A stretch of DNA of 64,000 bases, from contig NZ_FYDE01000005.1 in the NCBI RefSeq assembly GCF_900186535.1, forward strand, positions 1,526,895 through 1,590,894, in the 5' to 3' direction. Shown here piece by piece: positions 27,865 through 50,890 of this stretch. How positions within the stretch are numbered: the first letter of the stretch is position 1; every line of letters starts with the position of its first letter. The position numbers and the translations under genes are program-made. Source of the DNA: Marasmitruncus massiliensis. GTDB taxonomy: Bacteria > Bacillota > Clostridia > Oscillospirales > Ruminococcaceae. Under the pieces are notes generated by a model. It did no database searches, had not been told where the DNA came from, and saw only the letters and a list, made by a program, of their open reading frames with translations.

Positions 27865-27912
27865 CTGCGGGCATTTTCGCAGGCTAGTTTTCCATGGCGA
27901 AAATGCTTGCAG
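27865..27912 (+). promoter_or_regulatory. Inverted repeat upstream of spoIVB
   Basis: CTGCGGGCATTTTCGC and GCGAAAATGCTTGCAG pair over 16 bases with two mismatches around a 16-base spacer. No T-run follows. Confidence 0.45.
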
Positions 27913-28001
27913 TTATTCCCCCCGATAATCGCTTTATGCAGTGGAACATTAAAAGCGTGAACTTCATTAAAAATTTTTGTATGTTTAGGGGGACTTATCC
28001 G

Positions 28002-29210
28002 ATGAGAAAGCTATGCAGATATATTGTGGGGCCGATTTCCCTTGCAATTGCCGTTATTCAAGGCTTTGCACTTTATACACAGGCAGTTTTGCCAGATCAT
28101 TATTATGTCGCGGCGGGAGAACTGCTGACGATACATTCTACGGTCCCGATCACACCGCATCCAAGCAATGACAGCCTGCCGCAGGAAGCTTATAATTCGC
28201 CCGGGAACAGCTATAACGTCAATCTAAAATTGCCCGGCGGAGTAAATGTCAAGCAGGTGCAGGTGCAGGTTGTTGACAGGGAGATGGTAATTCCCGGCGG
28301 CAATCCGTTTGGCATTAAAATGTTTACAGAGGGCGTCATTGTTGTTGGAATGAGCGATATCGCCTCCGGCGGAGTATCGCAAAATCCGGCCAAAGCGGCG
28401 GGCATAAAAGTCGGAGATATCATTACTTCCATAAATGGAAAAGCCATGAAGTCCAATGAAGATGTGGGAGAAGTCGTATCATCCTCCGGCGGCCGCGCTG
28501 TCAATGTGGAACTTGAACGTGCGGGCATGCAGATGACATGCGCGATTCAGCCTGTCAAAAGTGACGACGGCGTGTATCGTGCCGGCATTTGGGTGCGCGA
28601 TTCCTCCGCGGGAATTGGCACCATGACTTATTATAACCCGACGACAAACGTATTTGCCGGACTTGGACACGCTATTTGTGACGTCGACACAGGGAATATT
28701 ATGCCGCTTCATTCCGGAGAAATCGTAGATGTAAAAATTACAGGCGTAAATAAAGGAAAAAGCGGGGCGCCCGGTGAATTAAAAGGAAATTTTCTCGGCC
28801 ACAAAACAGGAGATCTGCTGATCAATTCGCCGGTTGGCATTTTTGGAATTGGGACAACTCCGCCGCAGCATGCCGAACCGGTTCCGCTCGCACTCAGATA
28901 TGAGGTTACAGAAGGCCCCGCCACGATCTGGTGTACACTTGATGACGGTGTTACAAGAAACTTTGCGATTCAAATCGAAAATGTCAGTATTGGGGATAAA
29001 AATCCGACTAAAAATATGGTGATTCATGTTGTCGATTCAGAACTTTTGGCAAAATGCGGGGGAATTGTTCAGGGTATGAGCGGCAGTCCGATTATTCAAA
29101 ATGACAAACTAGTAGGTGCTGTAACCCACGTTTTCGTCAACGATCCAACTCGAGGCTATGGAATTTTTGTTGAAAATATGGATAAGATGTCAAAGAATAT
29201 CGAAAGCTGA
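28002..29210 (+). CDS. spoIVB: SpoIVB serine peptidase
   Basis: The 402-residue protein is the forespore-secreted peptidase that triggers processing of pro-sigma-K through SpoIVFA/SpoIVFB. It has an N-terminal membrane anchor (about residues 10-28), a PDZ domain (about 100-170, with AGIKVGDIITSINGK), and an S55 peptidase domain with the catalytic His in GLGHAICD (His223) and Ser in GMSGSPI (Ser362). The start at 28002 is chosen because TAGGGGGA lies eight bases upstream and the family begins with a short MRK segment before the anchor. The gene lies directly before spo0A, the usual order in spore formers. Confidence 0.96.
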   Translation: MRKLCRYIVGPISLAIAVIQGFALYTQAVLPDHYYVAAGELLTIHSTVPITPHPSNDSLPQEAYNSPGNSYNVNLKLPGGVNVKQVQVQVVDREMVIPGGNPFGIKMFTEGVIVVGMSDIASGGVSQNPAKAAGIKVGDIITSINGKAMKSNEDVGEVVSSSGGRAVNVELERAGMQMTCAIQPVKSDDGVYRAGIWVRDSSAGIGTMTYYNPTTNVFAGLGHAICDVDTGNIMPLHSGEIVDVKITGVNKGKSGAPGELKGNFLGHKTGDLLINSPVGIFGIGTTPPQHAEPVPLALRYEVTEGPATIWCTLDDGVTRNFAIQIENVSIGDKNPTKNMVIHVVDSELLAKCGGIVQGMSGSPIIQNDKLVGAVTHVFVNDPTRGYGIFVENMDKMSKNIES

Positions 29211-29353: not shown

Positions 29354-30133
29354 ATGAAAGACCATACAAAAGTGCTGATTGTGGAGGGACCGGGCGATTA
29401 TTGTGGGAAATGTGCGTCACTGCTGAAAACCTATGGCTTTGAGACCGTTATTGCGCCAAGAGATGGTCTTGCTGTAACCCAGCTGATTGGAGAAACGCTT
29501 CCTCAGGTCGTCCTGATGGATGTTTTCATGCCAAGGCTGGATGCAATCGGGGTTATGAATTCAGTAGGGAACATGGGTCTTGCTGTAAAACCCTATTTTA
29601 TGATTACCTCAACATTCAGTAACGCAATGTTGGAAAATGAACTGATGGCCGCGGGCGCCTGTTACTTTTTCTTAATGCCGTTTGATGTCGAAGTGATGGT
29701 AGAGCGTATTGTAAAAATGGCAGGCGCGAGCGGAATGAAGGGGGATGCTGCACGTGAACATATTGTTGGCAGCGAGCCGGATCTTGAATTGATGATTACA
29801 GAAATTATTCATCAAATTGGGGTGCCAGCGCACATCAAAGGCTACCATTATGTGCGGGAGTCTATTATGCTGGCAGTTCGGCAGCCGGAAATTATCAATT
29901 CTGTTACAAAGCAGCTTTATCCCACTGTTGCAAAAAGATTTGAGACTACTGCGTCTCGGGTAGAGCGTGCGATCCGGCATGCAATAGAAGTGGCATGGGA
30001 TCGCGGTGATGTTGATACGCTGAACAGTTATTTTGGTTATACGATTCATAATGGGAGAGGCAAGCCTACAAACAGCGAATTTGTGGCAATGATTGCCGAT
30101 AAATTACGTCTGCGTCTTAAAAATGCAAATTGA
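29354..30133 (+). CDS. spo0A: Sporulation master regulator Spo0A with a degenerate receiver pocket
   Basis: The 259-residue protein has a receiver domain (about 1-125), a short linker and the Spo0A DNA-binding domain (about 140-259) with [29 protein letters not shown] and [17 protein letters not shown], which are nearly invariant in Spo0A. The phosphoacceptor Asp56 in LMDVFMP is kept, but the acidic pair near the N-terminus (Asp-Asp in other Spo0A) is Glu11-Gly12, and the Lys of the KPF motif is Met108 (LMPFD). Thr85 is kept. Phosphorylation control is thus probably altered. GGAGGAGAAAG precedes the ATG. The family call is certain; the effect of the substitutions is inference. Confidence 0.97.
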
Positions 30134-50223: not shown

Positions 50224-50278
50224 AACAGTTGTATCAGTTTAGTTAGTGGCGTTGGTCGCATAGGTCGGGAGAATTTTG

Positions 50279-50890
50279 ATGAATGCATCCTCAAAATCCG
50301 AAATTTTTGAAGAAAAGTCCGATGAGATGCTTGCATTGCTTGCTAAAGAGGGAAGCGACGAGGCATTAACCAATCTGATTCAGCGATATGTTCCTCTGGT
50401 TTATCTAAGAGCGCGTGCCTATGCGAAATCAGGTCTTGATGAGGATGATCTGTTTCAGGAGGGGATGATTGCCCTGCTGAAAGCAGTCCGGAATTATCGC
50501 AGTGATCTGGAAGGCAGCTTCAAGACTTTTGTTGCTGTCTGCATTAATAATAAGCTAAACAGTGCAGTCGCAGCGCATATGAGGGACAAAAACGCCCCCA
50601 TGCGCGGGTATCTTTCTTTGGACGATTCTGAAGTTTCGGAAGAGCAGTTGGCGGATTCTTCTGTCCGGAGCGACCCTGAGTTTCTGGTGATTCAAAGTGA
50701 GGAAGCAGATGCGCGAAACAGGCGCATAGAGAACCTTTTGTCTATCTTCGAGCGGCAGGTCTTAAAACTTTATCTCAGCTCCTATTCCTATGATGAAATG
50801 GCAACTAATCTCGGTTCATCCACGAAAGCTGTTGACAATGCCTTGCAGCGAGTTCGGCGAAAGCTGCGGACGGTGTTTACTTACGAGTAA
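50279..50890 (+). CDS. Sigma-70 family factor, SigH (Spo0H)-like
   Basis: The 203-residue protein has sigma region 2 (LIQRYVPLVYLRARAYAKSGLDEDDLFQEGMIALLKAVRNY, the -10 recognition and core-binding part) and region 4 (YDEMATNLGSSTKAVDNALQRVRRKL) but no region 1.1 or 3. Region 4 closely resembles B. subtilis SigH, which drives early sporulation genes. The ATG at 50279 has GGGAGA six bases upstream. Gene context differs from Bacillus sigH, so orthology is probable but not certain. It has a sigma-A-like promoter. Confidence 0.85.
   Translation: MNASSKSEIFEEKSDEMLALLAKEGSDEALTNLIQRYVPLVYLRARAYAKSGLDEDDLFQEGMIALLKAVRNYRSDLEGSFKTFVAVCINNKLNSAVAAHMRDKNAPMRGYLSLDDSEVSEEQLADSSVRSDPEFLVIQSEEADARNRRIENLLSIFERQVLKLYLSSYSYDEMATNLGSSTKAVDNALQRVRRKLRTVFTYE

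Follow-up and report, generated by a model that had tools for sequence, protein, structure and literature searches.

Receiver domains are phosphorylated in a pocket where a metal is held by an acidic pair together with an Asp and where a conserved Lys contacts the phosphoryl group. For spore-forming bacteria, the part of a 2024 review drawn on here (PMC11210211) holds that sporulation is initiated via Spo0A in every endospore former, with activation by phosphorylation at a conserved Asp, that clostridial Spo0A is activated by orphan histidine kinases, and that there is no phosphorelay in Ruminococcaceae. A further point of comparison is offered by the aspartate-less receivers (ALRs) such as RitR, ChxR and FrzS: As described in the portion of the source used here (PMC4395418), they tend to keep the first acid of the pair and to lose the second, the Asp is most commonly replaced by Glu and next by Asn, and 70% of them are basic at the position of the Lys.

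We compared these systems with a Spo0A encoded in a window of 64,000 nucleotides (the whole stretch of DNA that was analysed) from Marasmitruncus massiliensis, in which the following features are found:

27894..29210, forward strand: spoIVB, the gene preceding spo0A (Pfam Peptidase_S55, 270.7 bits, plus PDZ)
29354..30133, forward strand: spo0A, 259 aa (TIGR02875, Spo0A_C, position after spoIVB, single full-length copy)
29369..29728, forward strand: receiver domain with an eroded phosphorylation pocket, aa 6-125 (Response_reg, alignments, predicted fold)
29795..30106, forward strand: Spo0A_C DNA-binding domain, aa 148-251 (Pfam; alignment with 1lq1 and 1fc3; TM-score 0.89-0.94)

The product of 29354-30133 is a genuine Spo0A and the only full-length one found in the genome. 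It combines a receiver with Spo0A_C in a full-length architecture, scores 263.3 bits against the NCBIfam equivalog TIGR02875 (spore_0_A; cut-off 200) and 154 bits, above the cut-off, against Spo0A_C (PF08769), both of its halves have the predicted fold of a Spo0A, and its gene follows spoIVB, which is the usual gene order. The match to Response_reg (PF00072) barely passes (31.8 bits, cut-off 30.2). The DNA-binding half had been called intact in the original prediction and is so: Apart from its Spo0A_C score, it aligns without gaps to the solved Bacillus-type Spo0A-C structures 1lq1 and 1fc3, shares an identical run with solved Spo0A-C in the second recognition segment, and appears, judged from its sequence, to belong to the kind that recognises 0A boxes. 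A second, canonical spo0A elsewhere in the genome, against which the original prediction had been set, was sought genome-wide and none was found, the sole other Spo0A_C match being an ORF of 72 aa.

This short ORF (L002:1489-1707, reverse strand) carries a partial Spo0A_C match only, and several relatives likewise show matches that cover the C-terminal region of Spo0A alone, in some cases in short ORFs. Some genomes of the class have at least two Spo0A-like genes (G160:C170:5197-6852 and others), with one tandem pair in G160. Moreover, 16 phage-labelled records, including MT837510.1, encode Spo0A-like proteins with identities of up to 51% and, in nine of the 16, a coverage of at least 80%; at least eight of the records come from human faecal samples, and these genes may be real phage genes or host DNA.

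The pocket positions of the receiver were set by alignment with the canonical Spo0A proteins of Clostridium tunisiense (L149) and Alkaliphilus pronyensis (L151), which places them as follows:

29384..29389, forward strand: E11-G12 at the acidic-pair position (alignment)
29519..29521, forward strand: D56, the phospho-acceptor position, retained (alignment)
29609..29611, forward strand: S86, the conserved Ser/Thr position (alignment)
29675..29677, forward strand: M108 where the conserved Lys is expected (alignment)

In the translation, VEGPGD corresponds to residues 10-15, the Asp to residue 56 and LMPF to residues 107-110. The residues named in the original prediction were thereby largely recovered: The Glu-Gly at the acidic pair is confirmed by the alignment with both reference proteins, and the retained Asp56 as well as the Met108 at the Lys of the KPF motif are confirmed by translation and alignment alike. 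Only the conserved residue given as Thr85 was one position off, as TSTFSN of this Spo0A aligns to LSAVGQ of the canonical protein and the conserved Ser/Thr is Ser86, which is retained together with D56, E11 and the aromatic F105. Compared with Spo0A as defined by TIGR02875 and PF08769, the protein agrees in its equivalog score, in being full-length and encoded behind spoIVB, in its DNA-binding half and in the 0A boxes at spoIIGA described below, whereas its pocket reads E-G/D/S/M instead of D-D/D/S,T/K; with the same residues it departs from the standard of canonical two-component receivers (D/E-D, D, S/T, K). Since the Asp is kept, this Spo0A is not an ALR, although it resembles the ALRs described in the portion of PMC4395418 used here in having kept the first acid and lost the second; it differs from most of them in having lost the basic residue at the Lys position.

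Within this genome, the erosion of the pocket appears nearly specific to Spo0A. There are 36 receiver matches, 30 of them with loci, and Spo0A is the weakest receiver above the cut-off among the 36, with two more below it. The 27 other receivers that were alignable and scored have the standard pocket in 26 cases, which rules out a genome-wide weakening of receivers. The exception (L178, G000:C3:1806762-1807088, reverse strand) has a second broken pocket, with D, G, N, A and N at the five positions.

Whether Glu-Gly and Met run through the lineage, a point raised with the original prediction, can be answered from a genus set of 11 genomes, the one studied here included. The nearest named genus is Anaerotruncus, and the nearest named relative, Anaerotruncus sp. 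G3(2012), has a Spo0A that is 79% identical. The pocket strings of the genus are EGDSM, EGDAM, ESDSM, EGDSL, ESETL, ESESQ or VEEAM: The Lys is retained in none of the 11 genomes and the second acid in at most one (0 or 1 by alignment), the doubtful case being G007 with Val-Glu in the 240-row alignment and Glu-gap in the genus alignment. Position 11 is Glu in ten genomes (in all 11 in the genus-only alignment), position 15 is Asp or Glu in nine, position 86 is Ser or Thr in nine, and position 56 is Asp in eight and Glu in three. The combination of E-G or E-S with Met is shared by six further genus genomes and by Anaerotruncus sp. G3(2012) (L073), which has the same Spo0A sequence as G002 in the tree alignment; this recurrence in relatives refutes a sequencing, assembly or alignment artefact, a reading to which we attach a vanishingly small probability and for which nothing was found except the alignment-dependent second acid in G007. 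Because DDDSR or DDDSK is retained by the closest sister lineages in the tree (supports 83-93, not starred), the second acid and the Lys were probably lost near the base of the genus.

The AlphaFold2 model of the protein (mean pLDDT 82, pTM 0.49, linker residues 126-141 under 50) contains the receiver residues 11-120 in blocks with a pLDDT of 82-97, and the strands and helices of the receiver alternate in the usual order before the Spo0A_C helices follow. In a Foldseek comparison with the PDB, the C-terminal half matched 1fc3 and 1lq1 with the TM-scores given above (by target length), and the receiver matched two Spo0A receivers, 1qmp in its phosphorylated form (0.78) and 5wq0 (0.82-0.85 among the chains listed). 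From the model and these matches, the overall fold of the eroded receiver is predicted to be that of an ordinary receiver. As synonymous sites are saturated in most comparisons within the genus, only close pairs count for dN/dS: In the three pairs that diverge least at these sites, which alone were used, the receiver has values of 0.035, 0.020 and 0.197 and the DNA-binding half has lower ones of 0, 0.004 and 0.074. By this comparison the receiver is under purifying selection, though evolving faster than the DNA-binding half. A reading of spo0A as a decaying gene or pseudogene is unsupported, given its open frame and a dN/dS far below 1.

The original prediction had framed the erosion as a matter of one odd gene, and in this respect it does not stand, as similar erosion is spread through the order. 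A total of 120 genomes (the own genome and 119 relatives) was searched and Spo0A was scored in 106; the 14 dropped genomes comprise nine without a match better than ~1e-9, three in which the gene is cut or split at a contig end and two with a distant match only, and G037 and G088, which are gapped at the acidic pair, are tallied as non-canonical among the 106. All five pocket positions are canonical in 28 of the 106 Spo0A proteins of the order compared to 45 of the 53 scored class controls from other orders (nominal p 2e-12, uncorrected for relatedness and for how the controls were chosen), a contrast that is partly one of selection since the controls, 54 of 77 class genomes, are biased towards good matches to canonical Spo0A. 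Many relatives in the order deviate at a single pocket position, and certain substitutions are mild (K to R). The 80 named loci, which are the best matches to the window's own Spo0A and whose genomes partly overlap the 106, include 38 with all five canonical positions. One of the named species, Clostridium sporosphaeroides (L080), has an Ile at the Lys position; this species forms spores. The Spo0A frames of the two gapped genomes (L243 on G037:C30 and L266 on G088:C17) contain one in-frame TAG each, and both genomes have spoIVA.

The phospho-Asp itself is replaced in 33 of the 106 proteins, namely by Glu in 20, Asn in 11, and Ser and Gly in one each, which is the same ranking as that given for ALRs in the portion of PMC4395418 used here. 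On a quick tree of 166 rows, computed with the pocket columns excluded, the Asp position must have changed state at least 26 times and the Lys position at least 17 times; 45 of its 160 inner branches are starred, and starred branches carry 12 and 7 independent contrasts for Asp and Lys, respectively. At the level of these sequences, related genera lost the Asp repeatedly. The losses of the Lys, the second acid and D56 are not significantly correlated across the order (p 0.10, 0.52 and 1.0), so that a piecemeal relaxation fits as well as one switch of mechanism. Moreover, spoIVA is present in 29 of the 33 Asp-less genomes and in 27 of the 28 genomes with a canonical pocket: With the gene equally frequent in the latter, pocket loss shows no visible cost there, nor a link.

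Turning to the output of Spo0A, the companion sporulation genes that had been named for the window were recovered in part: spoIVB and yqfD are supported by Pfam, whereas the gene called sigH-like (50276-50890) is, by Pfam, a factor of the sigma-70 family, assigned at family level. Beyond the window, spoIVA and spoIIGA are present in this genome and in all 11 genus genomes. A spoIIE-like gene matching over nearly the whole profile is found in ten of the 11, the miss being G006 (78% complete); the spoIIE-like matches lie below the NCBIfam cut-off in all 11 genus genomes, including the gene of this genome (E 3.8e-123). In seven of 11 genus loci, an exact 0A box falls in the region that runs from 320 bases upstream to 60 bases downstream of the open-frame start of spoIIGA, where ~0.03 are expected per sequence, and an exact single 0A box stands at spo0A in five of 11, with L004 scanned on the wrong strand. 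Before spoIIE, no exact 0A box was found in the ten genus loci scored, and tandem 0A boxes before spoIIG or spoIIE reached p<0.05 against shuffles in one of 21 sequences (L284, spoIIE, 0.035). At spo0A itself there is a candidate tandem site:

29188..29204, forward strand: putative tandem 0A boxes with matches at 12 of 14 positions, within the final spoIVB codons upstream of spo0A (shuffle p 0.005)

This site matches at 11 or more of 14 positions in eight of the ten genus loci scored, L017 being left out and L004, scored on the wrong strand, being one of the two misses; as it lies in the end of spoIVB, its conservation may be caused by coding constraint.

We also surveyed the histidine-kinase-type ATPases of the genome (33 matches to PF02518 and 9 to PF14501), all but eight of which lie within ~5 kb of a receiver gene. 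By NCBIfam or Pfam, seven of the unpaired eight are two SpoIIAB-like anti-sigma factors (one below the cut-off), GyrB, HtpG, MutL, a second GyrB/ParE-like topoisomerase and a protein of 184 aa with an ATPase domain; the eighth is a kinase-like orphan of 404 aa. Among the matches to both profiles, we found no histidine kinase that is unpaired and carries a phosphoacceptor His. The 184-aa protein (L331:739-1290, reverse strand, on G000:C3) consists of a lone histidine-kinase-type ATPase domain and is encoded ~1.5 kb from a SpoIIAB-like gene. The kinase-like orphan is linked to gapA:

L298:1902-3113 = G000:C2:502101-503312, reverse strand: orphan kinase-like protein, 404 aa, beside gapA (HATPase_c, alignment with 5c93)

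The ATP-binding domain of this protein is recognised by Pfam (HATPase_c, 73.2 bits), and its N, G1 and G2 boxes are kept, as in most of 30 homologues, and its C-terminal tail is conserved. In the alignment with the solved kinase 5c93, however, Ser150 stands at the position of the phosphoacceptor His in the H-box, and with this the obvious Spo0A kinase candidate is lost. Of the 120 genomes, 44 have a homologue (E 1e-20); in the 30 loci examined out of 45 matches, a gapA-like gene adjoins the homologue in 29 and the His is present in three. A link between this His and a canonical Spo0A pocket received no support from the 28 genomes in which both were scored: One combines the His with a canonical pocket, one the His with a non-canonical pocket, four have a canonical pocket and no His, and 22 have neither. 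In G023, which has a canonical pocket, the His-less homologue is the only unpaired gene of that size, and one of its larger unpaired genes is a topoisomerase. The gapA-linked protein is reminiscent of DivL, whose structure 4q20 is among its sequence matches: Both have the architecture of a kinase, intact ATP-binding boxes and no phosphoacceptor His, with a Tyr at that position in DivL and a Ser here. Compared with the clostridial Spo0A activated by orphan kinases as outlined in the part of PMC11210211 used here, Spo0A is the output in both systems, whereas the present one has an eroded pocket and a sole unpaired kinase-like gene without the His.

We favour, with a probability of roughly 0.6, a functional Spo0A for which phosphorylation is largely or wholly dispensable and whose receiver is kept for dimerisation, with control exerted by its level or by a partner. 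The receiver would have lost much of the chemistry for efficient phosphotransfer and would have been kept as a regulatory and dimerising module, while activity would probably depend for the most part on how much Spo0A is present and/or on a partner or ligand that binds the receiver, phosphorylation of D56 being weak or unnecessary. Both the weak or absent phosphorylation and the persisting dimerisation are what we infer. The claim of the original prediction that phosphorylation is weakened or gone is thus partly supported, by the Glu56 in three of the 11 genus genomes, the repeated loss of the Asp in related genera and the kinase survey of this genome, which found no unpaired His-bearing kinase, but qualified by the D56 found here and in seven other members and by the acid at position 11. 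These same retained residues, together with the acid at 15, the Ser/Thr at 86 in most of the genus and the F105 of this protein, speak for an alternative that we regard as distinctly less probable though still worth considering, in which D56 is phosphorylated in a remodelled pocket: E11 and D15 would help to hold the metal, the Lys would be replaced or dispensable, and rate or affinity would be lowered while the logic of activation stayed the same. The partial nature of the change, seen against the DDDSR or DDDSK of the sister lineages, and the ordinary fold predicted for the receiver would suit such a pocket, and the phosphoryl group could possibly come from paired kinases by cross-talk or from small phosphodonors; the Glu at 56 in the three genus members and the survey of this genome, which found no unpaired kinase with the His, argue against it.

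It is rather unlikely that sporulation is instead being lost, with Spo0A under relaxed constraint and serving a non-sporulation role or on its way out. Such losses are reported for gut Firmicutes, with a bimodal distribution in Ruminococcaceae, in the portion of PMC8340488 used here, and the faster evolution of the receiver as well as the sub-threshold spoIIE-like matches throughout the genus would be in keeping with them. The presence of spoIVA and spoIIGA in all and of the spoIIE-like gene in nearly all genus genomes, the low dN/dS of the receiver among close pairs, which is well below 1, and the exact 0A box at most spoIIGA loci point the other way. So does C. sporosphaeroides, a spore former that also lacks the Lys. 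We may speculate, at similarly long odds, that a Spo0A whose receiver has turned into a binding domain and the His-less gapA-linked protein form a phosphate-free pair that starts sporulation: Signals would pass between them through binding that depends on ATP or a ligand and not through phosphoryl transfer, perhaps reporting the glycolytic state.

In the open-licence literature searched, we recognised no paper that treats eroded Spo0A receivers in this order, and we regard the protein as a true Spo0A with an atypical receiver. Its significance extends beyond one species: In an order of gut bacteria, 33 of 106 Spo0A proteins are without the Asp and 29 of these 33 genomes have spoIVA, and if such Asp-less proteins work, the trigger of sporulation has changed more than once. 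As the erosion is common to many relatives, spore formation there may be triggered differently, and the control of sporulation in such bacteria should not be predicted from Bacillus or Clostridioides.
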